From Amphibalanus amphitrite (Eukaryota > Arthropoda > Thecostraca > Balanomorpha > Balanidae): a stretch of 64,000 nt of DNA. The translations under genes were made by a program, and so were the position numbers. The notes under the pieces are model-generated. The model ran no database searches. It saw only the letters and a program-made list of their open reading frames with translations, and was not told where the DNA came from. Positions 2,944 to 62,470 of this stretch are shown one piece after another. The first letter of the stretch is position 1. Each line of letters starts with the position of its first letter. Location: the NCBI RefSeq assembly GCF_019059575.1, contig NW_024882770.1:62001-126000 (forward strand), written 5' to 3'.

Positions 2944-3934
2944 CCCTATTCCTGGCGGGGGGGGGGGGCCTCAGGAGCCCCCCCCCCTGAGGTTTTTTGG
3001 TTATATCGCCCAAACGCGTTGAGCTAGGAAGCTCAAATTTTCTGACTTTTCCTAAAAGGCTTCTTCGCAACATGTCTGAAAATTTTGAGTTGATCTGACC
3101 TCAGGTCAGGTCACCAGAGGCGGTTTGGTGACGCTACCTCAGAAAAGTTTGCAATCACGCCAGAGCTAGAGTTTTTGACCGATCAATTTCTTCTCTTCAG
3201 GGTTTAGTTAGGGTACCAGTATGTGCAATTTGTATATCTCGGAATTTTGATATCGGTGACCTAAGGTCAGGTCAATTTCGCGACCTCCCCATTATAAGTC
3301 AATGGGGGAAAAATCAACTCCCTGTTTTTACCACTAAAACGGGTCGGAATGGCCCCATATACCATACATGACTTCATATACGATCAACCTTCACTACCTT
3401 GAGGTCTGTTTTGCTGTTGGGCAGCTGTGAGGTCATGTGACGTCATCAAAGGTCACCAAAGGTTTTTGGCCAATAACTCCGTACAGGAACAAGATACAGA
3501 CGCGTGGATGGTCTCATTGTGTTCAGCTCGTCAAGACGCATCGAATGATATACATGATGACCTCGAGGTCACGTGACCTGAGGTCAACCTTTGACCTTGA
3601 CCTTTCGAGGTCAACATATATATCATTCGATGCGGATTGACGAGAGGATCACGATGATGCCCTTAGTTTGTTCCTATCTTGACTAATTCGAAAGTTATTC
3701 GAGAAAAACTCTCTCCATATCTAGCGCCGCCATTTTGACTTTTTCGACCCCTGTGACGTCATCTTTGACCTGACCTGAAAATGACCTTTGTAAAAATTGT
3801 AGATCTTGGCCGTGCGTATCCGATGCCGTTTACCGCTTGTCGCTATCTTGCTTCGTTCTCGAGATCTCAGGGGGGGGCCGAATCGCCCCCCCCCCGCCAG
3901 TTTCTTGTCCCGGCGGAGCCCGCCAGGAATAGGG
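2944..3934. mobile_element. AGGTCA-rich TTAA MITE, complete copy
   Basis: Inverted ends CCCTATTCCTGGCGGG and CCCGCCAGGAATAGGG are flanked by TTAA at 2940-2943 and 3935-3938. Poly-G and poly-C runs lie just inside each end and can pair into hairpins (2957-2988 and 3871-3896). The interior has many AGGTCA/TGACCT words, for example around 3100-3125, 3250-3275 and 3560-3610. It encodes no transposase, so it is non-autonomous; assignment to piggyBac rests on TTAA and the CCC/GGG ends. Confidence 0.8.
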
Positions 3935-3938
3935 TTAA

Positions 3939-4669
3939 GCAGTCACCTGTGGATGCTTGAATTAGATCGCCTAAAAGGGAAATTTTATGTAATGAAGATG
4001 GGGTAAAACACCAACTCGAGAAGCAGGCGCTCACAAAATGTGGAACCTTAGCCTGTTGACCACTTTCGACGCAATCTTCTGGTCAGTGTACCGCCATATC
4101 CCCACGTGCGGTATCCAATCATTATGTTAGCACTATGAAGCCAATGCCGACGTCGATATCTTTTGACAGCAGTGCTTAAATAAAGAAATTTTGTCACATT
4201 GGGAACATCACTACCCGAGGAAAGTATAGGTGTCATGATCACACCACAATGCAGTCACTGTGCGCGCGGAGCGCTGGATCTACGGGACGGCGCACAGTAC
4301 CGTTTGTGAGCCGCGAAGAGAATCTTCTTGACATATCTGAACGGCGACCGAATGGGGACTTATGAAGACAATATAGTACTAAGGAGGATGTTAAGTGCAT
4401 ATTAGCGCCTATTTGAAGTCCATAACCCGCTAGCCATCGCCACACCTGGACCCGGAGGTGCCGCGCAATTTCAACAGGGGGCGTCTGTATAGCACGTGGA
4501 CTGTAGACCGCCTGGGAGGAGAGAGCGCCTAATTCTTTTGACAACTCTTAACTATTGCTGCAATTTATATATGTGCCAAATATCATCTTAATCTAAGTTC
4601 AAACACTAAAGTTATGGCAGCACAAACTTTTTTCCAGAAACTAAGTGCACACCCGTTATATTCTACGTA
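3939..4669. other. No recognised feature
   Basis: The minus-strand open frame at 4239-4544 resembles no family I know, and its context gives no support. Confidence 0.35.
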
Positions 4670-4903
4670 AAATCATGCAGGGCATATTTTAACATACTGA
4701 CTGCGTCCCATTTTGGGACGCAGCCCCCTGCCTTTGGGACGTAGCCCTCGCGAAATTTGGACCACTGCGTCCCACACTGAAATGCCACGGTTTCAGCCGA
4801 AAAGTGCGAGCTAAAATAAGTAGCATGCCTCGGTCTTTTACTGTGTAAAAGATGTTGGCTTTCCGATTGCTTTGTACCCTAATTTACTATGTACCTAAGC
4901 ACA

Positions 4904-6275
4904 TACATGCCCTCTCCAGTCCTTGTGCCCTGCCCTACCCTTGGTCATACACCTTATTATGTTCTTCCCTACTATACCCCTAGGATATGTGCCCTGCCCA
5001 GTGCCCTGTCCTTAGGTCTTGTACCTTGCCCTGCCCTTTCTTCAGGCCCTGTGCCCCGCTCTGCACTGCCCTCAAACACGATACTTTATATATTCTGCCT
5101 GGAAATTTGATGCGCTGCCTTCCCGTCTTTTTTGGCCCCGTGCCCGGCCCTACCCTAGTTTGGGGCCCCTGCCCTTCTCTGCCCTCAAGCCTTGTGACAC
5201 GTCCTGCCATCAGACCCCGTGCCGCTGCCTTGTCTTCAGGTACTGTGCCCTGCCCTGCCATCAGGCCTTGTGCCTTCCCATGTCCTCATGCCCCGGCCCC
5301 GCGCCCATCCTCGAGCCTAATGCCTTGCCCTGCCTCAGGCCCTGTCCTGTCATGTTCTGCTTCCAGGCCTCATGTGCATTGCACTGCCCTTAGACCCTAA
5401 GCCCTATTCTGCCATTAAGCCTTATGCGTTGTATCGCCCTCAGGCCCGTGCCCTGCCTCGCCCTAAGTTGCTGTGCTCTGCCCTGTCGTTAGGCCTTGTG
5501 CCGTCCCATGCCATCAGACCCTGTGTCCTACTCTGCCCTCAGGCCCTGTATTCTGCATTGCCCTAAGGTCTCGTGTCCCATGCCCGCTCTCAAGCGCTGT
5601 GCCCTGCCCTGTCATCAGGCCCTGTGGTGTCTCCCGCCCTCAGGTCCCGTGCCGTTTCCCGTCCTCATGCCCCGTGCCCTTACCTGTCCTCAGAACCCGT
5701 GCTTTGTTCTGCCTTCATGCCCTGAGCCTTGCCCTGCCCTCAGGCCCCATACCCTGGCCCTGTTTCACCGGTGATAGCAGCACGCTGCTATTGCACGTGT
5801 CAAATTGGGTTTCCATGGAGACATCAACAGGCCCATTGCTCAAACACTACCACAAGTATGACGTCAGCTCGCGGAATTTGATAGCAGCGCCCTTGAAACA
5901 CCGCCCACGTCTTGTCATACCTTCGGGGCCCGAAGGTATGACAAGACGTGGGCGGTGTTTCGGGCCTTGTGCCATACCTGTGTCTTATGTCTTGCTCTAC
6001 CTTTAGGTACTATTTCTTGCCCTGCTCTAAGATCCTGCGTGTTGCCCTGCCATCAGGTGTGTTGATCATCAGGTGTTCTAAGGCCCTGTGTCTTGCACTA
6101 CTCTCCGGCCTTGTGTAATGATAGCCTCAGACCCGCGCCTTGCCTTGCCCTCGGACCCTGCATCCTACCCAGCCCTCAAGTATCCGTCTTATCTTAGCTT
6201 CATGGCCTGTGCCTGCCCTGTCCTTAGGGCTCAGACTCTGTGTCCTGCCCTTCCCTTAAGTCCTGTTTAGAGATG
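4904..6275. repeat. CCCTGCCCTCAGGCCCTGTG minisatellite
   Basis: Degenerate tandem repeat of about 20-30 bases, read as 'tgccctgccctcaggccctg' with many variants. It is interrupted at about 5765-5965 by unrelated sequence containing a perfect palindrome. ORFs here (4987-5400, 5473-6006) encode only Cys/Pro-rich low-complexity peptides and differ in every frame. Confidence 0.75.
5895..5961. repeat. Perfect 33-bp inverted repeat with one-base spacer
   Basis: Positions 5895-5927 and 5929-5961 are exact reverse complements around the single base 5928. The arm begins GAAACACCGCCCACGTC. Such a tight perfect palindrome is either a very recent event, an RNA hairpin or a sequencing/assembly product. 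Confidence 0.85.
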
Positions 6276-7028
6276 TCAAGTTGGAGCCCGCAGGCCCGGA
6301 GCCTGGCCCAAAATCCGGCCCTACAGGGCTTTTGCATGCACAGTGGATTGTGTCATTGTTTTGAGGCTTTTGAGGTACCTCATCGAAACGCATCGACTGA
6401 TATGCGACATGATCTATCTTGGTCACGAAATGACCTTAATGTGAGGTCAAGTTCTGACCTTGACATTTCGAGGTAAAAATGAGAGAAGAACGATCGTGCA
6501 AACGAAAATTATCTACCTTTTTTTAGTTCAAAAGCTTTTCATGAAACCTATATTGACAAAAATTGTAATTTTACCCGTTTTTGGCTATGGAGCCTTAACC
6601 GTTGATCTGAACTCAATTCTGACGAAATATTGACGAAAGAGCTGTTCAAGATATATCGATTGCTTTTCTCCTATCGATTGCGCCCTCCTAGCTATCATAG
6701 TTTTTGAGATACCGGCACGTTTTCCGAAAAAAATCGTATCCTTGCGAAGTTTGACATTTGATGGCATACGGTCAGATCAGGGCCGTCATGGCCGGCTGGC
6801 CATAGGAGGATATAGAGGGGGCCACGGGGCCATGCTCCCCCCAAAAGCGCCCGGAAATGGCACAAAATCGACACATTTCTGGGCATAATAATTATACAAA
6901 GGAACTTCCATTGGGAAAAGTTTGGGTTATATTACGTGATAGGCAGTAAGGAAGCGAAATCCGAAGCATCCAAAGCATCCGTTCATCCAAAGAATTAATC
7001 TATGATGTTTTTTTTTATGTAGCTTTAA
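6276..7028. repeat. Decayed AGGTCA-type repeat sequence
   Basis: Short runs such as TGACCTTAATGTGAGGTCA near 6430-6450 and a partial C/G hairpin near 6810-6845 resemble the AGGTCA elements, but no terminal repeats can be placed. Confidence 0.4.
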
Positions 7029-7944
7029 CCCGCGAGTTGCTGGGGGGGCGTTAAACGCCCCCACTTTTTTCGCCGGGCCATAGCATAAAAACGGCGCGCC
7101 GCAGGCGCGCCAAATTTTGGAGACCTGTAGGGAATTGATTGAAGTTTATTGTGACAAAGTTTCAAAAAAATTGGTCGGAAATTTTTTGAGATATCGAGGT
7201 TTTAGTGACGTCATGATTTCTGAGTTTTCGACCAAAAACGGCATATGTTCAAAAAATCATATAAAACCACATAATATACATACAGACATGCCGTAAACGC
7301 CATTAGACTGCCAATACCTTGATCAATCAAATGGCTATCTTCGATTATTGATTATCGTTCCGCATTTTCCATAATCTTGAACTGAATCTTGGCAAATTTT
7401 CGTGACTACTTCACGACCATGATACATGCATTTCTTAAATTGAACTTTTTGAGCCAAACACGTACACATATGATAAAATGAATGTCACCATCGTGTTCTA
7501 CGCCCGAAATTACCTATAAAACATGTGTCACAGGCTGCGAATATCAGTTTTGATTTTCGGGGATATGTGCCTACCCGGTTGACCTGACCTTGACCCTGAC
7601 CTATGCTTGACTGACCCCTACATGGAGCTGACACTCTTGTAGGCCTTATATGATAGATTGCACACCGATTTGACAGAGTTTATGACGAGAGGCGCCCATT
7701 GCGAAGTCCTGAAGTCCATGCTACTGAAAGCCCGATTTCAGGTGTTTGACCTGACCTTGACCCGACCTGTGACCTCAAAATTCAACTTAAAAGTACTCAT
7801 CTGAAGCGTCTCGTCGCGCTCTTTCGTTTGCCGCCTCGTGCGTTTCGCTGCGCCTATTGGTTCTCGAGTTATCGGCTGGGGGCGTTTAACGCCCCCCCCC
7901 CCCCAGCAAACGGTGGGTGGCGAAATACCCCAGCAACTGCCAGG
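7029..7944. mobile_element. AGGTCA-rich TTAA MITE, CCCGCGAGTTGCTGG subtype
   Basis: Flanked by TTAA at 7025-7028 and 7945-7948. The ends are CCCGCGAGTTGCTGGGG and CCCCAGCAACTGCCAGG, each followed inward by poly-G/poly-C runs. TGACCTGACC clusters lie at 7580-7610 and 7740-7775. The same subtype recurs in inverted orientation at 36617-37542, where an empty site proves the boundaries. Confidence 0.85.
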
Positions 7945-8407
7945 TTAAAATCCGATGATTTCACAACTTAGGTGGGTACTGTTTGACCTTACGTCATCTA
8001 ATTATTTCAAACACATAGTATCGTCAATGCAAATTGGCAATGTTTCACACGTCAACCTCTATTTTGAATCGATTGATAAGGGTGAAAAACGCATGAAGAG
8101 ACGTATGTATCGCATTTTAATCATGTGCATATTCATTTTTATTCTCTAAGCATAGGTACAATTTGGTGCGTCAAGGGAGGTCAAACACGCCCAACGCCGT
8201 TCAGGAAAACGAGTGACTAATAACAATGTAAATGTCATTAAATCGCCGGTCCGCCCTTTGAATGCGGATAAAGAACGCACTACGACTGGGCGAATTTCGA
8301 GACTGGCCAAAAGCAATCACAGCCCGCTCCCAATATCCCGCTTGCAGTGCCCCTCCACCAGCACAGTACACAATGTATCTGTACATTATCGCACTTGCAT
8401 TACCTAA

Positions 8408-11553: not shown

Positions 11554-11777
11554 CCCAGTAAACATGCCGACGTCGGGCCGAGGCTCGGCCCGACGTCGGC
11601 CCAACGTCGGTTCAACCTCGGCCCGACATCGGCTAGACGTCGGGTATGCCCGCATGTTCCGACGTCCAGCCGAAGTCCAGCCGACGTCGAGCCGACGTCG
11701 GGCCGAGGTCGTTTGCCGAGGTTGACGAGATCGTTTGTCGTTGGACCGACGGGGCTGACGTCGGCATGTTTACTGGG
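11554..11777. mobile_element. GACGTCGG-array MITE
   Basis: Inverted ends CCCAGTAAACATGCCGACG and CGTCGGCATGTTTACTGGG enclose about 200 bases consisting largely of imperfect copies of CGACGTCGGCC. A second copy lies at about 12428-12643. I could not settle the target duplication. The long minus-strand ORF across 11388-12131 just runs through this array and the tRNA-like sequence. Confidence 0.7.
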
Positions 11778-12427: not shown

Positions 12428-12643
12428 CAGCGGCCGATGTCGGTCCGACGTCGCCCCGACGTCGGCTGGACCTCAGCAATTGATCTCGGTCCGACGTCGG
12501 CTGGACCTCGGCTTGACGTCGTTACATGCGGGCATATCCGACATCCAGCCGACGTCGTGCCGAGGTTGGACCGACGTCGGCATGCCGATGCCGAGATGCC
12601 GACGTCACCCCGACGTCGGGCCGACGTCGGCATGTTTACTGGG
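12428..12643. mobile_element. Second GACGTCGG-array MITE
   Basis: Ends on the right with GTCGGCATGTTTACTGGG, as at 11554-11777. The left end is degenerate. The interior is again an array of CGACGTCGG-like words. The overlapping ORFs on both strands are by-products of this array. Confidence 0.6.
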
Positions 12644-15655: not shown

Positions 15656-15964
15656 TCAGCGATCACACTGGTCTTTGGGGAAAGGGGCGAGGCGACCTCA
15701 GACACGGACTCTTCCCATTTATTGTATTTCAACAATTGCCTGATGTCGTTTGGGTTTGCATATCAAGCATGATATTGGATTGCCCTGTCGAAGGTGTGCT
15801 AATACTTGCACGCAAACTCTGGAACTCATCATAGGCGGCGAAAAGGGGGGGGGGCACCGGGGCACCGTGCCCTCCCCCCTTGATTTTGCCATTTTAACAT
15901 TAGCCCTACTGGCGTTGCATGGAAAGAATGGGACCAAAAGTCGGCAGTGTCCCCCCCCCCTTAA

Positions 15965-18221
15965 CCCTCGCCCATGTAGGGGGGGGGGGTTGGTGCAACC
16001 CCCCCCCCTGAAGTTTTTCTTAGCTACACGCCGAACCGTTTCAGATAGCCAGCTCAAATTTTCAGTACCCTTTGGGGCATCCTTTGCGCAACTTTTGGTA
16101 AAAATTGTTTGCCAAGGTCATGTCAGGTCACGGAGTTATGACGTCATAAAGGGAACAACCTCCGGCCAGATTTACGCTAAATTGGAGATTGCTTCACAAT
16201 GGTATAAATGCCGATTGACCTGACACACTGATGGATTGTTTTAGAATCATAACTGGCTGATTTGACATTGGCACAATGTCCGTTGACCTTTTCAAGGTTA
16301 CTAAAGGTCAAAGTCAGGTCAGTGACCTCGGTTGACCTGTAATGACTTCTTGCACTTGTATGCCTTTTCGGGGTATTTTGATGCCCTGAATTCGAATTTG
16401 CTAGGGTAGTGTGGGGTAATTTGAACATATTTTTACGTCTTCTCCGTTGTACCAAATTCCAGCTTAACCCTGGATGAAGAAAAACTGCTTCAGTAGCGCA
16501 AGTGTCACTTGCTTTCACCATGCAAGCCTCATTTTTGGACGAGCCGAGCATGCCTTGAAAAGCATAGCCTCACTTCTCCACCAAGTCGCGGTGTGTTCAA
16601 ATGGCCCCACCGTGGAGTAATTTGAACATACTGCCTTTATCTGTCATAAAAACGATAGTCTCGCCAACACCGATGTTGTTTGACCCATAAACAAATAGGC
16701 AGAACAATTCTAAACATACATTCACTTGAAAAATCAACACAACAAAAATAACAGTTGCAGAGTATCAATATCTGCACACTGCACACCGGTCAGTTGACAG
16801 AATTCGCCTGTCTTCAATTAACAGAACGTCTATCATTTTTGTTCGATAAAAACTCTCCCATCCTTACTGCATCTGTTATAGTGGTGCCAATCGAAACCTG
16901 GACATTTGGAGTTCTGATTTTGTCCAATGTCCAATTCGGAATTGGTAGGACAAAGGTAGCAGACTGGACAACATTGGACGATGGCTTGCTACACTTCAGC
17001 GCTTTTTATAAAGTAATCGTGCATAGCATTGATTGGCGAATGGAAAGCTTGTTAAGCTCTCAATATAATGAACACTTTTCGGCTGGTAAAAGTACATTAT
17101 AAGCAATTTAAATGACAGTTTTGAGTGTTTATTAATGCGTAATTTTCGGACATGTTTGGACAAATGGCTGACTTTAACATTTTTGAACGGAAATCAACAA
17201 AAATGCCGGACATTAGACGGACATTAGACGTAAATTTTATAAAACTGGCATCACTTATCTGCTACTGCTTTGGGTCGAAAATATTGGCAAAAAAAAAGCT
17301 GGGAGCGTTGTTTTTTTTTCGGAGCTATCCCTGTCTGGATTGAAATTCCTACACTATGTTCAAATTACCCCACGCTAAAAGTTATTTTGCCATATTTAAA
17401 AACAGGTTTCAAAAGCAAATTTCTTGTATTGAAGGCACTGATTAGGTAATTGTACAACAAAAGCCGTTGCGTATTAGGCGCTAGCAATGCAAGATTTTGC
17501 GCTGCAATGAAGTTGCAATGACGTGTTTTTAGGCGTTTTTACTTGCGAAAATGATTTTTTACAGTGTGCGTCAGCATCTTCATTCCATGAAACTTAAAAC
17601 CCCGTTCATATGATAGCCCTTTTAGTTACGATAATTTCCCTCATTGGTCATATTGTCATGCCACTTATGGATTTTCCGTAATTTTGTGTTTTTCACACTA
17701 TGTTCAAATTGCCCCACATGTTCAAATTACCCCACCCTACCCTATCCATTTCAGGCATCGTCAGTTGTTTCTTGTAGTTCATTTTGGGTCAGGGTCAGGT
17801 CAGTGACGTCACACGCCTGACGTGACCCAATGCACAAATGACCTTGCAGACTTCCGATGCTCCCAACGCATCATTTTTAGAGTTATGACATCGAAATACA
17901 CACCAAACGATAGAGAATTGATCAAGGATCACGATAGTGAAGGTTTCAAGTCGATATCTCTTACCGTTTTGCCGCAATCGGCGCGGAAATCTGAAAAAGT
18001 TAGATTTTTCCGAAAATTTAACCTTTGACCGGTCATAAGTAGGTCAAATGTTGACCTAGGACCAAAAAATATACCACCAATCGCGAGATCTAGTTGAGAG
18101 CAATCCGTTGGTCTTTTCCGCTAAGCTCTACGACGCTCCGTTTTCAAACGCCAGGGGGGGGGGGTCGCACCCCCCCCCCCTGCATGGGCGAAGGTGGCAA
18201 AACGCCGTTTACGGGCGAGGG
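15965..18221. mobile_element. AGGTCA-rich TTAA MITE in POLR2G intron, interrupted
   Basis: Begins CCCTCGCCCATGTAGGGG after TTAA (15961-15964) and ends GGGCGAGGG before TTAA (18222-18225). Poly-G/poly-C hairpins lie at 15978-16010 and 18152-18180. Removing the TA-flanked insert at 16404-17742 leaves about 920 bases, the usual family length. AGGTCA clusters lie at 16105-16340 and 17780-18055. The right part is closely repeated, inverted, at 53834-54164. Confidence 0.8.
16404..17742. mobile_element. TA-flanked element, TGGGGTAATTTGAACA repeats
   Basis: Inverted ends GGGTAGTGTGGGGTAATT and its near-complement ending CTACCC are flanked by TA (16402-16403, 17743-17744). The terminal phrase 'TTCAAATTACCCCAC' recurs inside near 16590-16630, 17355-17375 and 17700-17735. 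It splits the AGGTCA element above, so it is the younger insertion. No transposase is recognisable. Confidence 0.75.
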
Positions 18222-20255
<2,034 letters not shown>

Positions 20256-20720
20256 ATAACCCTCGCCGGCTGAGGGGGGGGGCGGGTGCCCCCCTAGGGT
20301 TTTTTCGCGATAGCTCCGAACACGTTAGCGATGGAGAGCTGAAACTTGGCATACCTGACCTTTGGTTCAAGCCGCATCTTTTGACACCAACCGCATTTTT
20401 GAGTCAGGTCAGGTCACTGACCTATGACGTCATAAGTGAACCTCTGCACGGTCTTCAGATGTCGCAACTTCGCAACGCCCTCACTGCCAGAGGAGATGTC
20501 ACAGGGAAATGAAACTTGCATGATCTAGTATCCATTATGAGTCCCACAACCTGTATATCTCGAATTTTTCCTAAAGGTCAATGAGGTCAGGTCATTTTCG
20601 TGACCTCACCATTATAAGTCAATGGGGAAAATGAAAACTGCTCTTCTGGCGCCGGGAACGATCTCCAACTATCTCAAGCACACAGAATCGTGATTTGATG
20701 CGCTCCTTGCAAGGTGAAAT
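20256..20720. mobile_element. AGGTCA element, left part
   Basis: Starts ATAACCCTCGCCGGCTGAG, a worn TTAACCCTCGCC terminus, followed by a G/C hairpin (20273-20298). AGGTCA words lie at 20405-20425 and 20573-20600. Its continuation resembles 21640-22299 and the copy at 61606-62470. Confidence 0.6.
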
Positions 20721-21639: not shown

Positions 21640-22299
21640 CCTTTATAAGTCAATGGGGAAATATGAAAATTGCTATTTTGGCGCCGAGAATGATCTGAAA
21701 CTATCTCAAGCATATAGAATCATGATTTCATGCACTCCTTGCAAGGTTCTATGCTTCATATTTGCATTGTTGCCCTTGCGTGACGTCATTTGTGACGTCA
21801 CAAGGGTCACAGTTTTTCTTCAATAACTCCCGATCAAATTGAGCTAGCGAGTCGGGAAAGCCACCAATGGACTCAGGAAGACCTGCCGAATCGAATGATA
21901 TGCGACATGACCTCTTTCGACCAGCTTCGTGACCAGGGGGTGCTGACCTGACCTTGACCTGAGGTCAACACCCTAAGTTGACGTGACCCGAACAAAAAGT
22001 ATATCATTCGATGCGCCTGAGCTAGCTGAACACGATGATGCCAAAATCGCGGCTCTACGGCCATTTTTGGCGAAGTTATTTACCAAAAACCGAACCCGTG
22101 CCTTAGATCACTTGACCTGACCTCAGAGGTCACCGGTTGACCTGAGACCTTTACAGCGGGTTCCTACCAGTCACTCTGCATTATACTTTGTCGCATACGA
22201 CCACTTTACCGCTTAATTCTAGTTTAATTTGCGGCGCATTAGCGAGGTGGGTTCAATCAACCCCCTCGGCCGGGGCAAATGTAAGTCCGGCGAGTGAAT
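21640..22299. mobile_element. AGGTCA element, right part
   Basis: 21645-21760 repeats 20613-20720 and also matches 61868-61985. TGACCT clusters occur at 21945-21985 and 22110-22150. The right end is worn (CTCGGCCGGGG at 22266-22276). It may be the continuation of 20256-20720 or a separate truncated copy. Confidence 0.55.
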
Positions 22300-25794: not shown

Positions 25795-25925
25795 TGTTAG
25801 GTTAGGTTGTAGGTTTGTAGGTTTCAGGTTGGTAGGTTTGTAGGTTAGGTTAGGTTAGGTTGTAGGTTTGTAGGTTGTAGGTTGGTGGGTTGTAGGTAAA
25901 TAGGTAAGGTTAGGTCAGGTTTGAT
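25795..25925. repeat. Degenerate TTAGG/TAGGTTTG telomere-like repeat
   Basis: Runs of GGTTAGGTTAGGTT alternate with GTAGGTTTGTAGGTT. The complementary strand form (CCTAACCTAACC, ACCTACAAACC) recurs at about 26160-26185 and 26688-26745. TTAGG is the ancestral arthropod telomere repeat, but these short impure tracts are interstitial and could be ordinary microsatellites. Confidence 0.55.
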
Positions 25926-26059
25926 TATGTTTTTTCAGGACATATAAGTATCATTTTTGGATTCAGGATGTCAAATAATGTAAGAATATGAAAACTTTAT
26001 CTTTTTACAGTTACTCGGACTCAATGTATACTTTTACCTCGAAATCAGCTGGGAGAGTG

Positions 26060-28628: not shown

Positions 28629-29054
28629 TTAAGAGTAATGTGTTACCCCCTCACATTGCCCCACCAGACAGTGCTAAACATATTTTTCCGTGTTGGGCCG
28701 TGGGCGTTTGATTGAGTGGGAGGGGGGGGGGGCACAAACACGAGTTGGGTCACTGGCAGCTGCCAATTGACAATTTGCTACTTGAATCGCAGTAGCAAAA
28801 TCACAGAATCACAGTGGATACTCAGCTCTATAAATCACAAAACTCTGGCTTTTCCCGTAGTCTTGGAGTATGAACAGTTTTTGAGCAAATAATTTAACGT
28901 TTCTCGTTAAATTCGTATAAGACTCCTAACAAAAACGCATTGCAGAGAAGGTAATTTTGTGAGAAGTTCACGTTTTGACTGGGGGGGCAAATGTTGGCCA
29001 CTGGGGGGCAATCCGCTCGACTGGGGAGGCAATTGCCCCCCCCAGTTAACATGT

Positions 29055-37542: not shown

Positions 37543-39392
37543 TTAAAGCGCTCGTCCAGTAGTGTCAGTGTGCCAAATTTGGTGTGCCTAGGTCAAAGTT
37601 TTCCGGAATCGGAGGATGCCTCCTCAAAGCATGTTTTTCGCCCCTGACGCGTGCATTCCGCACCCCCTGCTGCCGAGCATACCATATGTTAATGGTCAAA
37701 CACCGTGACATGTGACCTGTGAATTTGGCACCTGTGCCGCCCACCGTTTAATTTGGAGCGTCGCTTAAAGGTTTTTGCCCTTCCTGACTTTGTCGGCACG
37801 TGGCACGCGCCACGTGACACCGAATGACCTGTGACATGCATCATCACCTGCCTCAAAGCATTACCCGTCGAACGGTACCACCAGCATCTCGATCCGATCA
37901 TCCGTTTAGGCGCAATTCCAATTGTATTGGCTCGATGACCTTTCAGAGCACGGGTTTCTGGCAACGTAAAATGGCGCCTTGTCGGCTTCACTATCTTCCA
38001 TAGGAGGTCCATTGGGATCGTCAGTCCAGTTTATTTATACGTCCGTGATTTCACCACACGCAAGTGGCACCGGGGTTACATGAGCGATCCGTTCCAAATA
38101 CGCACTACGCTAATGCGCATCAGCTCCCCACAAACGGATCTACGGCACCGGTTACATGAGACTAATTCGTTTTATCTACGTCAAACGGATCTTGTTTGGC
38201 TCACCCGGGCTGACTCCTCGACGGCCGGTAATTCGCATCACAAACGGAATAGGATTAGCGTACAGTCATGGCGCAGTTGCGGCATTTACCGGGACGACTG
38301 AGCTAAATTTTAAATACTTATATCATTTGATAGGCTCAAAAACATTTAAAATTAACATGAAAACAAAAAATGAAAACAAAGTTTTCTTGTTTTAAGTCAG
38401 TGGGCACTGATTCGTCATGCAGCGACAGCAGGGTGGTCAGAAAAAATTATTTATAAAAATATTTCATTCATTTTATTTCACATGCAAAGACTAAACCAAA
38501 ATACCAACATTTTTTTGCTATTTTCTACGAGGCAGCCAATAAAAAAATGCTTAGTATTTTGCATTTTGACGCTTCCATTCAGCAAAGAATACCTAGTTCT
38601 TGTGAAATACGGCCCGAATCGTGTGCCTCGGTTACATGAGCGATTCGTTCCAAATACGCACTACGCTAATTCGCATCAGCTCCCCAAGAACGCATTCAGT
38701 GCACCGACTACATGAGCAAATTCGTATCAGTGACGTCAAACGGATCTAGTTTGGCTCTCGGCCCGATGCGCATTACAAACGGAATAGCATACAAATGTGG
38801 CGCACTTCCGTAGCAATAGAGGTGACTGAATTAAAAACTTAATATCTTATGTCTTTTTTGTATTTAACCCTCGCATGTGTGCGGCGTTTGCCAGCTTCTA
38901 ATGTGTAGGGGGGGGGGGGGTCGGTTGGACCCCCCTTGCCGTTTGGCCCCTGATCGAGCTAGAGCTTCGCGGAAAAAACGAGCGTGTTGCCCGTGACGAG
39001 AGGAAGCCGATGATACCCAATTTTAAGGTCCTAGGTCATTGGTTGACCTTCCAGGTCAGGTCAATGACCCAAAGTCGGGAAAATCGGGACCTGTTAGAAA
39101 GTCGTAAAGTGTGGCTTCTAAGGGGTTTTTCAGGGTGCTGATCACGAATATCGTGTTAGTTTTGATCACAGATGATGTCTTGAAGCATTTAGACCAGGTC
39201 GGGTGAGGTCAGGTCAGGTCAACCAGTAGGCGTCGTGACGGGTATTCGTAGTACGTGTCAACCGCCTCTGACAGCTTCGTAATATGTTACGAAGTCACCA
39301 AAACTACTTCGTAAATGTTCAAATGATTGCTAAATTCGAATTCAGCTCCAAAAACTAGCCTAGAAACATGTAAAACTCGAAAAAGTGACCCG

Positions 39393-39425
39393 AGGTCACC
39401 CGAGGTCACCAAAGGTCAATGACCT
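39393..39425. promoter_or_regulatory. Possible nuclear-receptor cluster: DR4, DR4, IR1
   Basis: AGGTCA at 39393-39398, 39403-39408 and 39413-39418 are each separated by exactly four bases (two DR4 arrangements). The last is followed after one A by TGACCT at 39420-39425, a perfect IR1. These spacings are known binding arrangements for RXR/USP partners, with IR1 the classic ecdysone-receptor palindrome. Binding here is inferred, not shown. Confidence 0.6.
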
Positions 39426-39576
39426 GACCTGACCTTCAGGTGACCTTGACACACACGGGAGTAACATCAAATCACATGTTTGAACGTTTGAAACCACGAA
39501 AAGCTTGCAAACACGCGGCTAGTGCGAGCCGACATACGCGAAATCGCGATTCCGGCCAAACATGGTCTCGGAAAAG

Positions 39577-39596
39577 AGGTCACAGGTCAAAGGTCA
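39577..39596. promoter_or_regulatory. Possible nuclear-receptor cluster: tandem DR1
   Basis: Three perfect AGGTCA half-sites at 39577-39582, 39584-39589 and 39591-39596 have one-base spacers. DR1 is bound by RXR/USP, HNF4 and related receptors. Function is inferred. Confidence 0.6.
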
Positions 39597-40344
39597 TTTG
39601 CGTCAGGGTCATGAAATTTTCAGGGTAGGTGTAAAATTGATCAATGCGAGGGTACTGAAAGTTTCGTCGCGATCGGCCGCTTTTTACGCGAGTTATTCGC
39701 GAAAAACCATGGGGGGGTCCATCCGACCCCCCCTACACATGCGAGGGTTAATCTGCTCAAAACATTCTCAATTAACTTAACAAAAAAAAGTTAAACATAA
39801 AGTTGTCTTGCTTTGACTCATTGAGCACTTGCCTCTCTTGATACGTCCTAGTGCTGTCAGAAAAATGTTTGAACTGAAAGTACTTTGATATTTTCTTTTT
39901 GGTTTTCACTCCATTTATTTGTGAAAACTTGACAAAATACCGACATATTTTTTAAATTATTATTTCAAAAAAAGCAAATGAAAAAATACCCATTATTTTG
40001 CATTTTAATGTTTCTTTTTGCAAAGAAATAGTTCCTGTAATACGTATCTTGGTCCTATTCGCTTCCAAGCCTCTTTCCCTGCGGATTTTGTTCGGACCGC
40101 CGATTCGTATTAGCAGGTGGATACATGAGTCGGTAGTACGCTCCTGATTCGCATTAGCGGTGAATCCGATCGTGATACGTATTTGCTTTGCTCATGTAAC
40201 CGCGGATCGGATCACCGATTCGTACTAGCAGGTGGCTACATGAGTCGGTAATGCGTTCCTAATTCGAATTAGCGGCTAAATACGTATTTACTGTGCTCAT
40301 GTAACCCCGATAAAAGCGCGCGGCCCGACGCACTACCACCGCAC

Positions 40345-42826: not shown

Positions 42827-43180
42827 TTAACATTACGACGTAATGACCTCTAACTGACCTCAAGTCAGTGACATAAAAAACCCGAACTACATTTTATACA
42901 ACTTGGTGAACATAGCACATCCTGAAAGTTTGAAGGAAATCAGTCCAAAACTGTGAGTTGGACAGGTGCATAAAAAATTGAAATTTGACCATGACCTTGT
43001 ACCGGTTTCTCTGACCTGGAAACCTGACCTAAGATCATCCGGACCTGAAATTTTCAGGTCATATGTAAAAGGATTGCTTCATAGGCTGTGCTAAATTTGG
43101 CGGCGCTGCGCGCCGCCGTTTTTACGCCATCTTTGAAAAACCTAAGGGAGGTTGCATCAACCCCCTGCCAGGGCGAGGGA
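42827..43180. mobile_element. AGGTCA element, right piece of host copy
   Basis: Continues 31690-31977 across the composite insertion. The end GGGCGAGGGATAAA is a worn GGGTTAA terminus. Confidence 0.7.
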
Positions 43181-44040
43181 TAAAATGTGTAGAATTACCA
43201 GGCTACTATACTGCTATGCTACCTCAAAATTGTGAAAATTTTGGAACCCCCAATTTTTTTATATAATAGCCAAACAACCCAAAAAATCTATTTTCGAAAA
43301 CACGGAATAGGTTTATATATAAGAATCTCAATCAACTTCTAAATCTATTCATATGCCAAAGTTTAGATCGATACCTCCTTTTTTGGCCAAGTTATAGCAA
43401 AAAACTCCAAAATTGATGGCGTCAATTTTTTATGGCGTCAACTCTTTTTTAGCAATTTTAGAACATGTAGCGCAAAACAAAGACCGCCATTAGACTCACC
43501 GTGACAAGCTGCATCAAATATTTGATACAAGACTATCATTTTTGAAAGTTGACCTTTTTGACCTGACATTGATCTGACCTCCATCAGAAAGTGACCTAAA
43601 TCGGACCTGATGGTCTTATAACCAACAACCATTGAGTTGGACATGCAAAATTGGCTATAAAACATGCATCACACAACCCTAGTAAAGCTTGGTTCATGTG
43701 CTGACCCTTTGTGAACTGACCTGTGACCTGACCTGGTATTATCAGGAACCTCTAATAGCAAGCGAGATCTGTACTAGGCAACTGACGCCCTATCGCTGAT
43801 TTTCGACAAAATTCGTTTTACTCGATGTTATAGCACATTTCCTAGAAGCCCCGTGAACGGTGAAACATTTTATCTTTGATCTGACCTGTGACGTCATCGT
43901 TGACCCCGAGGTCAATGAAATTGGATTTTTCCTTGACAAGTTTAACAGGGCTATCGAGCGCCGTTTCGTTTTGGGAATGTAACAGCTACGTCATTTCTGT
44001 CTCTGATGATTCATTCCAGCCTCCATTCCATCCATGATTC
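43181..44040. mobile_element. AGGTCA element fragment
   Basis: Matches the copy at about 56090-56930 in the same orientation, with TGACCT clusters at 43545-43620 and 43715-43745. Termini not found. Confidence 0.6.
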
Positions 44041-44640
44041 CTCGCACTGGCAGGGGGTCGATGCGACCCCTCTAAGGTTTTTCGAAGATAGCGTAGCAGC
44101 GCCGCCAAATTTAGCACAGTTTATGGGGCAGCATTTTCACACATGACCTGAAAATTTCAGGTCCGGGCCACTTTGGGTCAGGTCACCAGGTCAGAAAAAC
44201 CGTTACAAGGTCATGGTCAAATTTCACTTTTCTTTTTGCACCTGTCCAACTCACAGTTTTGGACTGATTTCCTTAAAACTTTCAGGATGTACTAAGTTCA
44301 CCGAGTTGTATAACATATATTTCGGGTTTTTGATGTCACTGACCTGAGGTCAGTTAGAGCCTAGAGGTCATTACGTCGTAATGTTAAGCCTATGGGAAAA
44401 TACTAAATTCGGAAAATACTGGAGATATCCGCTTCGTTCTATCACTTTTGTGCTTTTAACCACAGTATTTAACAGCAGGTAACTTGGTGCTTTTTTGTTT
44501 GGTGTACTTATCCATGGGTCAGGTCAAATGAGGTCAACTGAGGTCAAATGACGTTTTTGCCAATAACTTGGCACATAATGACGCTAGAGCTTAAAAAATG
44601 GCGTCATTGTGTTTCTGGTGATCAGCCCAATCGAAGAATA
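44041..44640. mobile_element. AGGTCA element carrying the empty composite site
   Basis: Inverted copy of the sequence around 31978-42826. The intact ACGTCGTAATG-TTAA-GCCTATGGG at 44373-44396 is the pre-insertion site. AGGTCA clusters at 44159-44195, 44340-44370 and 44517-44550. Confidence 0.75.
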
Positions 44641-50625: not shown

Positions 50626-51300
50626 CCGGCTGCCAGTCTTATCACGGCCAATCAATACGCCGGAGGCGGGTCGGAGACAGGCGACGGCACCCACACGCCC
50701 TCCGCCCGATCCAGCAGCGTAGACATGCCTGCACAGCAGGCACCGCCTCCGCAGAGCCGGAGATCCACAGAGCCGGAGGTCTGCACAGCTGCCGGCACAG
50801 AGCCGGAGATCTACACAGCTGTCACCACAGAGCCGGAGGTCTACACAGCTGTTACCACAGAGCCGGAGGTCTACACAGCTGCCGGCACAGAGCCGGAGGT
50901 CTACACAGCTGCCGGCACAGAGCCGGAGGTCTACACAGCTGCCGGCACAGAGCCGGAGGTCTACACAGCTGCCGGCACAGAGCCGGAGGTCTACACAGCT
51001 GCCGGCACAGAGCCGGAGGTCTACACAGCTGTCACCACAGAGCCGGAGGTCTACACAGCTGCCGACACAGAGCCGGAGGTCTACACAGCTGTCACCACAG
51101 AGCCGGAGGTCTACACAGCTGCCGGCACAGAGCCGGAGGTCTACACAGCTGCCGGCACAGAGCCGGAGGTCTACACAGCTGTCACCACAGAGCCGGAGGT
51201 CTACACAGCTGCCGACACAGAGCCGGAGGTCTACACAGCTGCCACCACAACAGCTGCTGTCCGAACAACTGTTGCAACAGCAGCAGAGTCGACGGCCTGA
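50626..51300 (+). CDS. Possible exon encoding 10-residue tandem repeats
   Basis: A strong acceptor-like tract (TTCTTTTCTCACCTGTGCAG, ending 50625) precedes an open frame to TGA (51298-51300). After about 45 Ser/Gly/Pro-rich residues come 16 units of 30 bases (50761-51240) encoding TEPEVYTAAG or TEPEVYTAVT, then a Thr/Ala-rich tail. Thr-rich acidic repeats resemble secreted mucin-like or matrix proteins, but I recognise no family. After the stop, the same frame continues with similar TAVATE residues to 51465, so the stop may be a mutation. The minus strand is also open (50614-51375), but it gives an implausible repeated Cys peptide. It could be a non-coding minisatellite. Confidence 0.35.
   Translation, partial: PAASLITANQYAGGGSETGDGTHTPSARSSSVDMPAQQAPPPQSRRSTEPEVCTAAGTEPEIYTAVTTEPEVYTAVTTEPEVYTAAGTEPEVYTAAGTEPEVYTAAGTEPEVYTAAGTEPEVYTAAGTEPEVYTAVTTEPEVYTAADTEPEVYTAVTTEPEVYTAAGTEPEVYTAAGTEPEVYTAVTTEPEVYTAADTEPEVYTAATTTAAVRTTVATAAESTA
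50761..51240. repeat. 16-unit 30-bp tandem repeat
   Basis: Consensus ACAGAGCCGGAGGTCTACAC followed by AGCTGCCGGC. Nearly all variation is confined to the last bases (GCCGGC, GTCACC, GCCGAC), so only residues 8-10 of the peptide unit vary. Confidence 0.95.
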
Positions 51301-55837: not shown

Positions 55838-57000
55838 GCCGTAGGGGGGAGGCGAAACGGTCCCCTGTTCTTTTCCCCTCATATCTCCTAAACAACTACA
55901 GATATCGTCACCAAACTTTCAGGACCCCTCTGGGCATCAATTTTACACATTGTAACCTAAACTTTTCTAGAGGCTATGATAGGTTGGCCGCAAATGACGT
56001 CAGAATGACGTCATGTTCTGCCATTTTCGACCCCAAAAAAGGTTTCACAGGAAGAGCTGTCAGGCCTATAACTTTGAAGATACAGAAAAATGTTCAAGAC
56101 GTAAAATGTGTATAATGTGCAAGGCTATAAAACTGCTATCTCGAAAGTTTGAAATTTTTGGAATTTGACCCCTAAAAATCAAAAAAGTAGTTTTTTGGAT
56201 ATTATAGCCAAAAAATCCCAAACGTTTTTCGAATCTCCAAAAACCGGAATATATATGATAGTCCCTCCCACCTAGTATCCATATGTCAAATTTGAAATTG
56301 ATACCTTTATTTTTGGCCAAGCTAAAGCGAAAACACTGCTCAAAATTGATGACGTCAAATTTTCAAACTCAATTTTTAGCAACTTAAGACCTCGTAGCGC
56401 AAAACAAAGACCACCATTAGCCCCCTGGTGACGAGCTGCATCGAATCGATACCCATTTTATGCCAAAATATCAGCTTTGAAATCTGACCTAATTTGACCT
56501 GACCTTGACCTGACCTTTACCAGAACATAAGCTTAACTGGCCCCAAAGGTTTCCTGACCCTCATAATCTCATTTGTCATGTAAAATGGACCATAAAACAT
56601 GCATTACACGACACTTTCGTATTGGGATCTTCAGTGACCTGACCTCTGGGCTCTGTGACCTGACCTTTGTGACCTGACCTGGTAAAAATGATCTCAAATA
56701 GCAAAATATGTGTTCTACGGACCATCCCCCTATCGATGATTTTCAATAACATGCCGTTTACTCGATTTTACAACAGATTTTTTGAAAAGCCTGTAAACGG
56801 TGAAAAAAAATCGAACTTTGACCTGACCTGTTACGTCATCGGCTGGACTGAGGTCAATTAAATTTGGTCACAAGGTAGTTCCGTGGTAGGGCTATCCAAC
56901 GCCGTTTGAATTTTGAAAATCGGCCGGTAACTTTCCGAGATCTTAGGGAGGAGGGCCGAAACGCCCCCCCCCCCCAACCCACTAGGGTCCGCCGATAGCC
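55838..57000. mobile_element. AGGTCA element, unresolved ends
   Basis: G-rich 'GTAGGGGGGAGGCGAAACGG' at the left and 'GGGCCGAAACGCCCCCCC' at the right are inverted partners. TGACCT arrays lie at 56485-56525 and 56635-56680. Homologous to 43181-44040. Confidence 0.6.
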
Positions 57001-58512: not shown

Positions 58513-58516
58513 TTAA

Positions 58517-58740
58517 CCCTCGCCCGCACATGCCATTTTCCCATCCTGGAACTCACATGGGTGGAGGGGGGGGGGGGTGCAATCCTCCGGCGCCATTTCG
58601 TTCCTGTTGGAGATAGAGCCTCGCGGTAGAGATCAAAAAGATTCTTTGGGAAGAGACAAATCCAACGATACCCAGTTTTACCTTCTCAGGTTAGTCATTG
58701 ACCTTCCAGGTCAGGTCAAACTAAAAAATGTTGCTGTTTT
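58517..58740. mobile_element. AGGTCA-family left end, truncated
   Basis: CCCTCGCCCGCACATGCC after TTAA (58513-58516), with a G run at 58565-58577 and AGGTCA words at 58700-58718. Cut off near 58740, where sequence shared with 29030-29060 begins. Confidence 0.65.
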
Positions 58741-59217: not shown

Positions 59218-59221
59218 TTAA

Positions 59222-59445
59222 CCCTCGCCGGCACAGGCCATTTTGCGTCCTTCGACGGCACAAGGGGGGGGGGGATGGTACGACCCCCCTCGCGTTTGGC
59301 CCCTGATCGAGCTAGAGCTTCGCGGAAAAAACGAGCGTGTTGCCCGTCACGAGAAGAAGCCGATGATACCCAATTTTAAGGTCCTAGGTCATCGGTTGAC
59401 CTTCCAGGTCAGGTCAATGACCCGAAAACCGGGAAAATCGGGACT
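59222..59445. mobile_element. AGGTCA-family left part, cut by LINE insertion
   Basis: CCCTCGCCGGCACAGG after TTAA (59218-59221). 59290-59440 matches 38940-39090 closely, then stops at GGGAC, where the LINE tail starts. Confidence 0.75.
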
Positions 59446-61015
59446 TTATTTATTTATTTATTTATTTACTTCGTAGTGGCCGTCCCCTATCTATGACCGA
59501 AGTCAAAGAGGCTATTCTTGGCACTGAGTCAATAAAAGATGGTGATGAAGTGGGTAAAAGAACATCATGCTATGACATAAAAAATGCTTAAAAATCACGA
59601 TAAAAGCACACAACACAATGCACATACATATACAATTACATACATATCACACTTCGTCCGCACCAGACGTCAGTCGACGTTTCAGCTGGTTTCTAAACTC
59701 GGTGACGGTCAGATCAGTAAAGGCGGCGGGAAGAGCATTGTACAGCTCTGCGGCACGGTATGTAAACTGCCGCTTTCCCGCCGCCGTGCCACGTATGTTA
59801 GGGAGACTCAGCAGGTTGTCACTGCGAGTGCTGCGCACATGGTTGGGCCGTTCGCGGTTCGTGCAGAACCGAGCAGCCAGAGACTCGGGCTGCCCAGTCT
59901 GACGGACCTTATGAAGCAGTGTGAGGGTGTGATGGACGACCAGGTCTTGGGAACACAGCCAGCCCAGGTCTTCTCGCACGGCGGATATATGGTCAAATTT
60001 ACGCTTTCCAGAAATGATGCGGGCTGCATAGTTGAAAATTTTTTGAATGGTTGCCATGTTTCTGCCAGAACCGTTGCCGTACACTGCCAAACCATAGCGG
60101 ATGTGCGAGAAGACTAGGGCTGAGACGATGATAGGAAGGGATCCGGGGGGTAGGTAGTGACGTAGGTGAGAGATGGCGGTCAGGATCCCTACGCACTTCC
60201 GAGACAGCTGTGATACGTGCGAATCCCACGAAAGATGACGGTCGAAAGTGATACCAAGATTTTTCGCCTCGTAGCCGGGAAGGAGAGCTGTACTCCGAAA
60301 TTTTACAGAGAAGGGGGGAAGGTTTCGTAGATTTTGCCGAGTGCCGATAGGGAGGAGCTCAAATTTCGCCTCGTTGACTTTCAGTCCATTGGACCGAAAG
60401 TACGCGTCCAGGGATTGAAGGGCCGCCTCCATGTCACCGATCAAGGCTGGAAAGGCGTTTTTTTCTGCCAGAGACGAGAACCTGCGTGTCGTCGGCGTAC
60501 TGCGTGACGCAGGCGCCGGCGGCATGCAGGCTGAGGTCGTTCGAAAAAACCGTGAAGAGAAGAGGGCCGAGAGAGGAACCTTGGAACACGCCTTTGGTAA
60601 TTGGACGAGACTGGGAGATAAGTGTTGGAGAAAGGCTGACGCTCTGTGTATGGCCGGACAGGTAGCTGGAGAACCAGGAGGTGTCGATGCAGTAAAGCTG
60701 CAGCTTGGATAGTAATATGGCATGATCGATGACATCGAAGCAGCGACTCAAATCGATGAGGCAGAGAAGCGAGATTTGACTTTGATCCATTGCGTGAAGC
60801 GCGCGGTCGGTGACGTTAATGAGGGCTGTCTCGGTAGAGTGTTGGGGCCTGAATCCGTGTTGGGATTGGGAGAGGAGATGGTTGGATGCGAGGTAGTCGT
60901 ACAGCTGGAGCTACACCACCTTCTCCACTACCTTCGCGATGACAGGAAGGATTGATATAGGACGGAAGTTTGAAGGATCGTCGGTGTTCCCGGACTTGTG
61001 AATTGGATGTACAGT
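59446..61015 (-). mobile_element. Second 5'-truncated LINE with TAAA tail
   Basis: Minus-strand LINE ending in TAAA tetranucleotide repeats (59446-59468 on the plus strand). The 5' truncation lies near 61015. Its motifs differ clearly from the LINE at 22862-25605, so it belongs to another family, within the broad CR1/Jockey/I group by my reading. Confidence 0.8.
59647..61010 (-). pseudogene. LINE reverse transcriptase, inactivated
   Basis: Read on the minus strand: HKSGNTDDPSNFRPISIL, a nonsense TAG at 60913-60911, QHGFRPQHSTETAL, CLIDLSRCFDVIDH, FQGSSLGPLLF and the catalytic YADD (60499-60488). In a homopolymer of seven bases (60458-60464) the frame slips by one, after which it continues FPALIGDMEAALQSLDAYF to RAAELYNALPAAFTDLTVTE and a stop at 59647. 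The endonuclease is absent. Confidence 0.85.
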
Positions 61016-61601
61016 AGGTCTACTAAAAAAGTCCCCCGCTCCAGAGGCGGCCGGCCGGCCGAACCCCCGGATTCCAGCCCCGACTCTATTGCGCAGGCCG
61101 CGGCAGTGACACGGGTCAGGTCGCGGCGCCCGGCGAGTGGGTCAGTTGGCGGCGGCCGGCCGTGGAGTGAGGACGCCGTGTGTGGGGCGCAGCGATGCCG
61201 CAGTGCAGAGGAGGGGAAGATAGTGACTCTCCACGATGCCGGAAATGATGCCTTTGTGATCTAAATTAAACATCTGCACTGCAGTGCATATCCTCCCTTG
61301 CCCCATGCCTATTATGTATACCTATCATAATCCTTCAATAATCCGCAATGACCATTCAACGCAAGCAAGCAAACAAAACAGCCCGTTTAGCGGCGACATC
61401 ATCTCTGATAAAAAAGCGACAGTGATGATTAGAATTGACTTAGCAAATCGAGGCGTATGTATGTATCGTATGCCGAGTATTTTATTCCCATCTAGCAAAT
61501 TAGGATTGGGGATCTTGTCCAACAAGTCAGCGGCCGTTCTAGACACAGATAAATACTTTGTTTTCGGTCGCATCATTATCTGCAATAATTCGAAGCGAGG
61601 T
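61016..61601. other. No recognised feature
   Basis: 61035-61240 is GC-rich with open frames but no recognisable domain. The expected continuation of the AGGTCA element interrupted at 59445 is not here. Confidence 0.35.
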
Positions 61602-61605
61602 TTAA

Positions 61606-62470
61606 CCCTCGCCGGCCGAGAAAAGGGGTGGATGCCGCCACCATGTATTTTTTTTGTGGTAGCTCAAAGCACACTGATGAAAGAAGGCTGACATTTCATA
61701 TGCCTTACATTACATTTGATTCAAGCCGGATTATTTGAAATCAAGTATCAACCACGTTTTCATGTCAGGTCACTTAACTATGACGTCTTAAGTAAACCTC
61801 TGCAGACTGCACGGTTGTCGGTTATAAAATGACGCAAATCCGTAATGCACTTAGTGTCATATAAGCATAATGGGAAAATATGGAAACTGTTAATTTGGCG
61901 TCGGAAATGACCTAAAACTATACTTCAAGCACATGAGATCGTGACTTCATACATTCTTGGCAAGGTTTAATGCTTCACTTTTGCACTATTCACCTTGCGT
62001 GACGGAGTGCTCGTCAATAGGAGTGCTTCGTCAATAACTCCCGATCAAAATGAGCTAGCCAGTCGGGACAGCCATCAATGGACTCTGCAAGACTTGCCGA
62101 ATCAAATGTTATGCAACATGTCCTCCTTTCAACAGCTTCGTGACCTGTGTTGCCCTAACATGACATTGACCTAAACATCCTAAATTGCTTCACCTAAGCA
62201 AACAAGCATATAAATCGGCGCGTCTGAGAACAGAAAACACGATTGTATCGAAATGACGATAATGCGACCATTTTTTGCGAAGTTTTTCACCAAAAACCGA
62301 TCCAATGCCGTGGGGCCCTTGACCTGCCCTAAGAGGTCACTGATATTTTAAAATGGGATAACAGTCGCTGCGTCACGTAACGACGCAAGCGCAGTTAGCT
62401 CAATTATAGGAGCTAAACATGGGGTTGGGGAATCGCTCCCTTCTCACTCATTATTTGGCCGGGATAGTGT
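61606..62470. mobile_element. AGGTCA-family TTAA element, diverged
   Basis: CCCTCGCCGGCCGAG after TTAA (61602-61605). The body matches 20256-20720 and 21640-22299 (for example 61868-61985). The half-sites have decayed in this copy, and the right end is worn (TTGGCCGGGATAG). Confidence 0.6.

Follow-up and report, generated by a model that had tools for sequence, protein, structure and literature searches.

The piggyBac transposon of Trichoplusia ni (T. ni) targets TTAA, has tips of the CCCT type and carries asymmetric subterminal palindromes; a dimer of the cysteine-rich domain (CRD) of its transposase binds the palindrome at bp 17-33 of the left end, the right end being longer (PDB 6x67/6x68; Chen 2020, PMC7351741). 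The CMITEs of corals are gene-less, piggyBac-related TTAA elements of about 100 bp with one conserved 75-bp interior, which is more conserved than their tips; the paper on them raises a role in transposition as a speculation and reports tandem arrays (PMC2872659). Subterminal sites for the transposase also occur in Tol2 and Ac (PMC11707139). Receptor sites borne by transposable elements are known as well: the Alu DR2 elements belong to a repeat family scattering RGKTCA receptor half-sites genome-wide, and arose largely by deamination of methylated CpG (PMC1785376). In this work we describe TTAA transposons filled with clusters of the word AGGTCA (or its complement TGACCT) in a 64,000-bp stretch of the barnacle Amphibalanus amphitrite (contig NW_024882770.1 of assembly GCF_019059575.1, positions 62,001 to 126,000; hereafter the window). 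Two further systems are relevant to them: Spm, which like Tol2 and Ac has a short motif that is repeated in arrays near the element ends and is needed in cis, and the CENP-B box of alpha satellite, a short protein-binding word recurring at nucleosome-scale intervals in homologous monomers.

The barnacle elements share with T. ni piggyBac the TTAA target, the CCCT-type tips, a homologous transposase and the asymmetry of the subterminal palindromes; however, the palindrome of T. ni has TGACGCA-type half-sites and is G/C-rich here, and the accessible part of PMC7351741 describes no interior array with a spacing of about 165 bp. With the CMITEs they have in common TTAA, piggyBac relationship, lack of genes and an interior more conserved than the tips, but no repeated motif array or spacing is described in the accessible part of PMC2872659, and the 60-bp interior consensus printed there contains neither AGGTCA nor TGACCT. 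A short motif repeated inside the element is also the feature of Tol2 and Ac, whereas AGGTCA starts mostly from about 140-176 bp in and fills the interior at steps of about 165 bp. The likeness to the CENP-B box is that of a protein-binding word repeated at nucleosome-scale intervals; unlike in the satellite, the units between clusters within one element are mostly unrelated in sequence. In contrast to Alu, the carriers are DNA transposons in which exact AGGTCA is kept between lineages, with up to 25 repeats per intact element at nucleosome-scale intervals. The accessible portions of a piggyBac survey that includes Amphibalanus (PMC10813416) make no mention of an internal repeat, a subterminal site or a binding site, and we found no paper reporting a transposon with arrays of a receptor word at nucleosome spacing, the nucleosome and linker topic being judged by titles. 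The spacing of about 165 bp and the asymmetric tips go beyond the preliminary description of this stretch.

The window contains 217 AGGTCA/TGACCT words where a dinucleotide model predicts 28.1, an excess of 7.7 times. The same excess was found in a sample set of 20 hand-chosen 10-kb pieces (190 kb readable) of the 807.6-Mb assembly, with 681 words against 88 expected. Single-mismatch variants of AGGTCA occurred in the window at 0.86-1.81 times the expectation, except for ACGTCA (3.29 times), which we put down to arrays of TGACGTCA and GACGTC. Nine intact elements and three autonomous flanks, taken together with everything related to them by sequence homology, occupy 39.4 of 254 kb and hold 612 of 898 AGGTCA sites (15.5 per kb compared with 1.33 elsewhere); only 75 of the 217 window sites are in the first 1 kb behind a recognisable tip. 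These results confirm the AGGTCA excess in the window and its TTAA-element carriers, and support the earlier proposal that TTAA transposons spread the word genome-wide. AGGTCA, which we take to be a nuclear-receptor half-site, is present in both the window and the samples. It agrees with the RGKTCA of PMC1785376.

The preliminary description spoke of one family of at least ten elements with TTAA flanks, CCC...GGG ends, a subterminal G/C hairpin and a saturated interior. The flanks, ends and palindrome were found at 14 tips of the window (a TTAACCC match allowing one mismatch, together with the palindrome), which we assigned to nine elements; ten is reached only when the diverged copies detected by homology (27756-28632, 34950-35402, 56102-56864 and 21652-22133) are added. 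TTAA flanks and CCC...GGG inverted tips, as in piggyBac, are present in the intact carriers. Instead of a single family, the carriers comprise several families with distinct tips, which to judge by sequence form a clade of T. ni-type piggyBac elements together with the gene-less elements derived from them. Two TTAA elements of the window with other tips, CATTACG and GGCGCTG (42827-44387 and 33400-36616), lack CCC...GGG tips and also bear AGGTCA; six TTAA pairs with AGG tips hold 0 or 1 site each. The element singled out earlier as an example is indeed dense (38864-39751; its 888 bp hold 17 sites, where 0.43 would be expected), while the elements at 7025 and 36613 have 6 each and can hardly be called saturated, nor can the sequence behind tips 55187 and 45781, where the first AGGTCA is 1,298 and 941 bp away. 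The tip motif CCCTCGCATGTGT of the example gave 3058 + 2977 matches genome-wide with up to two mismatches (control, 16 + 19).

The G/C palindrome starts at bp 14-15 from one tip and at bp 41-45 from the other in all 14 elements examined. Among 13 CCC elements with sites, several of which are copies of one family (a site-free TTAA/CCC pair of 271 bp, L023 5878-6148, was left out; L-numbers label loci read from the same genome), 22 of 26 ends have their first AGGTCA at a distance of 140-176 bp from the tip; at the other four the distance is 107, 555, 564 and 663 bp. In the element 2940-3938, for example, the left tip and the first site are 156 bp apart, and the last site and the right tip 151 bp. 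Clusters run through the interior rather than concentrating at the ends. The earlier claim that AGGTCA is no part of the terminal repeat stands for the CCC elements; it fails for 42827-44387, whose inverted arms carry sites from 17 bp inward.

The histogram of distances between AGGTCA sites in the samples has peaks around 160-170, 320-330 and 500 bp, separated by troughs around 85, 245 and 405 bp; this histogram includes the tandem array of L025, and its first peak is also present in the window alone. Of the 57 gaps shorter than 400 bp between consecutive clusters of the window, 32 fall in 110-175 bp, compared with 11.1 (standard deviation 2.9, maximum 21) in 2,000 jitters. When hexamers represented by 25 or more pairs in the peak were compared, AGGTCA had the highest peak-to-trough ratio at about 165 bp (16.6, L025 included). 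Searching the genome for TGACCTGACCT followed by another TGACCTGACCT after 125-155 bp returned 41,137 + 35,090 = 76,227 matches (controls, 17 + 48); at 60-90 bp there were 884 + 1,087 = 1,971 (controls, 34 + 67), many of the listed places being minisatellite-like, and overlapping matches were counted separately in both searches. Median centre spacing of clusters is 161-180 bp depending on cluster width, a sounder figure than gap length. A spacing of about 165 bp would correspond to a nucleosome repeat.

Homologous head-to-tail units, as expected of a satellite, were observed in the L034 flank and the L025 array. Neighbouring inter-cluster units of the gene-less elements tested mostly have no detectable homology, the exceptions being pairs that flank one cluster and the inverted arms of 42827-44387. 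Segments flanking one AGGTCA cluster are homologous in the 2940 element, where they are inverted (3558-3613), and in L016, L009, L022 and L035; flanking-segment homology concerns four further gene-less elements and L035. The 33 inter-cluster segments of the window fall into 18 homology groups; a separate analysis by chaining gave 7 groups, too liberal a grouping for counting independent origins. The L025 array (2659-5720 and 7073-7660) is satellite-like, with units of about 145 bp, sometimes 173 bp, most of them carrying TGACCTttaAGGTCA. Helical phasing of 10.5 bp in the window was weak (0.15), and a period of 5-5.25 bp was stronger (0.47), as overlapping runs of AGGTC give such a period.

The preliminary description had named, as an outcome that would speak against it, half-sites no more conserved between copies than neighbouring bases. 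We found the opposite: in 15 window pairs below 90% identity, 858 of 921 AGGTCA bases were identical (0.93), compared with 0.72 for other bases of the same clusters and 0.77-0.81 for bases farther away. In 166 sample pairs of 60-90% identity, which overlap and hence are not independent (L025 was left out), 13,028 of 13,901 site bases were identical (0.937), compared with 0.731 for non-site bases in clusters and 0.819 for the others, and site identity was the higher in 163 pairs. Even in the 39 sample pairs at 60-70% identity the sites retained 0.914 against 0.705 and 0.713.

To separate mutation after landing from what is passed on, we distinguished private variants, found in one copy and mostly of post-landing origin, from shared variants, found in several copies and inherited from their source. 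The comparison covered five families with 26 copies; CpG columns outside sites and homopolymer columns were set apart, and the minisatellite L018 (19 overlapping windows) of a first six-family run was dropped. Private variants occurred in 41 of 458 site columns and 253 of 2,417 other columns (p 0.36), whereas shared variants occurred in 5 of 458 and 145 of 2,417 (about 5.5-fold rarer at sites, p 9e-7); the p value of the contrast is 0.0003, and it stays at or below 0.0032 when any family other than the one seeded by L016 is dropped. With L018 kept, shared variants occurred in 7 of 512 site columns and 370 of 3,908 other columns. Other hexamers of the same five alignments, pooled, had private and shared fractions of 0.112 and 0.096, compared with 0.090 and 0.011 for AGGTCA, the lowest of 25 hexamers for shared variants. 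Counted by bases in nine copies of the 38864 family, private variants were 24/757 at sites and 140/4,899 elsewhere, and shared ones 2/757 and 211/4,899; for the 2940 family, five copies were available, all too young to be informative. The firmer half of this result is that private variants are undepleted at sites while divergence between lineages is depleted. The constraint seems to act on spreading copies and not after landing: copies with broken sites, on our reading, may land and persist but would rarely become sources. Since gene-less copies encode nothing, the function of the sites must be in cis; AGGTCA is kept in the spreading lineages and probably helps the elements move. Of the two possibilities raised earlier, that the elements seed receptor sites and that the motif serves the element, the second is favoured by this contrast between private variation and conservation.

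The transposase profile PF13843 had 116 matches in the genome, and 12 loci were read. AGGTCA was counted within 1.2 kb before and 0.7 kb after the open reading frame (ORF): there are 13 sites in L034, 16 in L035 and 15 in L040 (the last counted by hand from the site list), and 0-2 in nine other piggyBac loci. Inside the ORFs of these three loci there are 0, 1 and 1 sites, and sites also follow the ORF downstream in all three. In L034, for which both tips were found, sites lie upstream of the ORF and a TATAAAAG stretch lies near its start. In L040 a 2940-type copy starts at 4,732 of the reversed locus, so sites beyond that point are not its own; the many sites of L030 are mostly outside its presumed tips. 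L034, L035 and L040 form one clade with support 1.0 and have a CxxC..CxxC..CxxH..CxxC CRD, the CRD of the nine other loci being different by eye. The L034 transposase, with which the structure comparison was made, the other two being placed by clade membership, belongs to DDE_Tnp_1_7 (Pfam E 2.4e-69) and aligns with T. ni piggyBac (6x67, E 2.2e-78) from residue 117 through the CRD, and with piggyBat (9c0f, E 3.4e-30) without the CRD. Arrays beside the ORF thus occur in 3/3 loci with a T. ni-type CRD and 0/9 with another (Fisher p 0.0045, for loci chosen by the analyst and three carriers that share descent).

Adjacent pairs no more than 30 bp apart (n = 435, L025 left out) include the layouts DR-1 (overlapping direct repeats, 126), DR4 (45), the everted repeat ER1 (35), DR1 (17), DR5 (15) and the inverted repeat IR1 (10). 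Inverted layouts are a minority of 59, the commonest being AGGTCA-N5-TGACCT (14 of 59). TGACGTCA adjoins AGGTCA, with 27 of 74 occurrences within 30 bp and 0 at 31-80 bp, and looks like a second host-factor site. An element-borne receptor was also considered and rejected: the genome has 77 matches to zf-C4 (PF00105) exons, which are not transposon-like in expansion and, by eye, occur mostly in pairs as for two haplotypes. These nuclear-receptor DNA-binding exons are mostly paired on different contigs, judged again by eye, as if two haplotypes or duplicated genes had been assembled.

A cis function at steps of about 165 bp, with some 120-150 bp free of AGGTCA between clusters, would be in keeping with proteins binding in the linkers between nucleosomes, and the exact AGGTCA word fits a host protein of the nuclear-receptor type. 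We give a probability of roughly 40% to the following reading: the arrays would be cis-acting sites aiding spread, read by a host nuclear-receptor-type factor, with one cluster per nucleosome linker. Each AGGTCA cluster would sit in a linker, where an AGGTCA-binding protein of the host, probably one of the nuclear receptors, would occupy it and keep the nucleosomes of the element in an ordered and accessible row; the transposase could thereby reach and pair the two tips, using their CCC repeat and their G/C palindrome (bp 14-15 and 41-45), which has the position of the CRD-binding palindrome in T. ni piggyBac. In a stricter form, which we hold to be doubtful, the interior would encode a fixed nucleosome array with a multivalent protein cluster per linker, and the protein would fold or open the element and join its tips. 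Several observations weigh against the reading. AGGTCA-free gaps between multi-site clusters have a pooled median of 133.5 bp (interquartile range 123-151, 138 gaps below 260 bp); an exact 147-bp gap was rejected as a rule, the median being 147 bp in the window (30 gaps) and 130 bp in the samples, and so was preservation of gap length by compensating indels, the net change exceeding that for random signs (15,745 vs 10,649). Tandem duplication explains the spacing of some arrays (L034 flank, L025), and as several families have common ancestry, the spacing has not arisen many times independently. AGGTCA ranks 7th of 259 hexamers in conservation (0.931; median 0.804; 95th percentile 0.908), three of the six above it overlapping AGGTCA runs and three being rarer words. 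The deficit of shared variants leans mostly on the L016-seeded family, without which it is 2/329 against 40/1,735 (p 0.052) and the contrast has p 0.082. The left tip of L035 and the right tip of L040 were not found, which leaves it uncertain where these elements end. The adjacent pairs are not dominated by the classic layouts of receptor dimers, and no strong 5' extension of AGGTCA of the monomer-receptor type was seen.

The host factor is our first choice as the reader, with the element's own transposase a close second. It is a real possibility, if a tentative one, that the CRD or an inner dimer of the transposase binds the arrays, raising its local concentration and aiding end pairing, while the spacing keeps sites off nucleosomes. 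This would fit the restriction to one clade with a T. ni-type CRD at least as well as a host factor does, and conservation in gene-less copies likewise points to an effect in cis; moreover, the T. ni CRD half-sites TGACGCATG and cryptic TGACGTACG share TGAC with TGACCT and TGACGT with TGACGTCA (PMC7351741), and the commonest inverted pair is AGGTCA-N5-TGACCT. On the other hand, the G/C palindrome already fills the place of the T. ni CRD site, AGGTCA begins only 140-176 bp in at most ends, inverted pairs are few, and in piggyBat a third subterminal site reduces activity (PMC11707139). That the arrays are a by-product, with AGGTC runs arising by slippage, multiplied together with a tandem unit of about 165 bp in an ancestral element and persisting by descent without function, we consider unlikely, despite the abundance of DR-1 runs, the true tandem units of L034 and satellite-like array of L025, the chaining of 103 of 137 inter-cluster segments into one homology group at a liberal cut-off, and the weakness of the shared-variant deficit without one family. 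Site bases are far better conserved than others of the same clusters, low mutability is no explanation as sites take private variants at a normal rate, and adjoining units in the gene-less elements tested, where homologous at all, are mostly the pair flanking one cluster. Still less probable are arrays acting as germ-line enhancers of the transposase through host receptors and CREB/ATF-type factors and merely inherited by gene-less copies; the upstream sites of L034, TATAAAAG near its ORF start and TGACGTCA beside AGGTCA would fit, but lineages that encode no transposase retain the sites, which in the autonomous loci lie downstream of the ORF as well. Expression in particular cells, the use suggested for the motif earlier, has in its favour that autonomous copies have sites beside the ORF, yet it cannot alone explain conservation in gene-less lineages. 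The least probable is a function for the host, landed copies being kept as hormone-response elements: millions of sites by extrapolation and the receptor-site-spreading elements of primates (PMC1785376) speak for it, while sites of landed copies vary privately as other columns do and give no sign of constraint after insertion, although a few co-opted copies are still compatible with this.

The elements of the window are listed below.

Table 1. AGGTCA-bearing elements and fragments in the window.
Feature	Position	Strand	Remarks
Gene-less TTAA/CCCTATTCCTGGCG element	2940-3938		18 sites, 5 AGGTCA clusters
Seven-site AGGTCA cluster within inverted repeat flanks	3558-3613		
TTAA/CCCGCGAGTTGCTG element	7025-7948		6 sites, 2 clusters 170 bp apart; 95% identity to 36613-37546
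Element with T. ni-type asymmetric tips	15961-18225		12 sites; palindrome at bp 15 and 42; exceeds the other gene-less copies in length
AGGTCA-bearing fragment related (74%) to 61869-62340	21652-22133		
Older copy of 38864 element, 83% identity	27756-28632	-	10 sites
TTAA element, inverted arms of about 490 bp (97% identical)	33400-36616		17 sites inside, part of them in a nested 38864-type piece
Diverged internal piece, 38864 family	34950-35402	+	7 sites
Second copy of 7025 element, reverse orientation	36613-37546		6 sites
TTAA/CCCTCGCATGTGT element (example of the preliminary description)	38864-39751		17 sites, 4 clusters
TTAA element, CATTACGACGTAAT tips, AGGTCA-bearing inverted arms of about 350 bp	42827-44387		22 sites
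Relative (68.5%) of the 42827-44387 interior	56102-56864	+	Clusters hold 5, 6 and 3 sites, with distances of 157 and 180 bp between them
Tip with G/C palindrome at bp 43	59218-59444	+	First site at 168 bp; 59264-59444 has 93% identity to 38910-39090
AGGTCA-bearing fragments, relatives of 20257-20448 and 21652-22133	61603-62340		

Other repeats of the window include 11-bp CCGACGTCGGC-type arrays at 11567-11711 and 12434-12630, a motif array different from AGGTCA, and a 30-bp tandem repeat at 50766-51243 (15.9 units, 93% match) with several frames open. TTAGG/AACCT-like repeats occupy 25796-26745; exact (TTAGG)6 has 5,014 + 4,880 overlapping matches genome-wide (control, 5), an abundance in keeping with an arthropod. 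A large minisatellite with a GGGCCCTCAGA-like unit was seen at L018 3911-7468, and a similar repeat of 21-47 bp lies at 1042-1775 of the window. Neither the Rfam scan nor the tRNA scan of the window gave a match.

It is well known that transposable elements scatter factor sites, and it can rarely be decided whether such a site serves the element or the host. Here, a first answer comes from sequence alone: conservation of the word is seen between spreading lineages, whereas in single landed copies none is detectable. With its nucleosome-scale spacing the system allows a direct test of a chromatin role for a transposon interior, and if the interior does encode a nucleosome register, this would be a mobile element selected for its packing and not for encoded content. 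If a receptor reads the sites, the surplus of about 2.5 million half-sites genome-wide, as extrapolated from the samples, would also act across the genome as a sponge or seed for hormone signalling in this animal.

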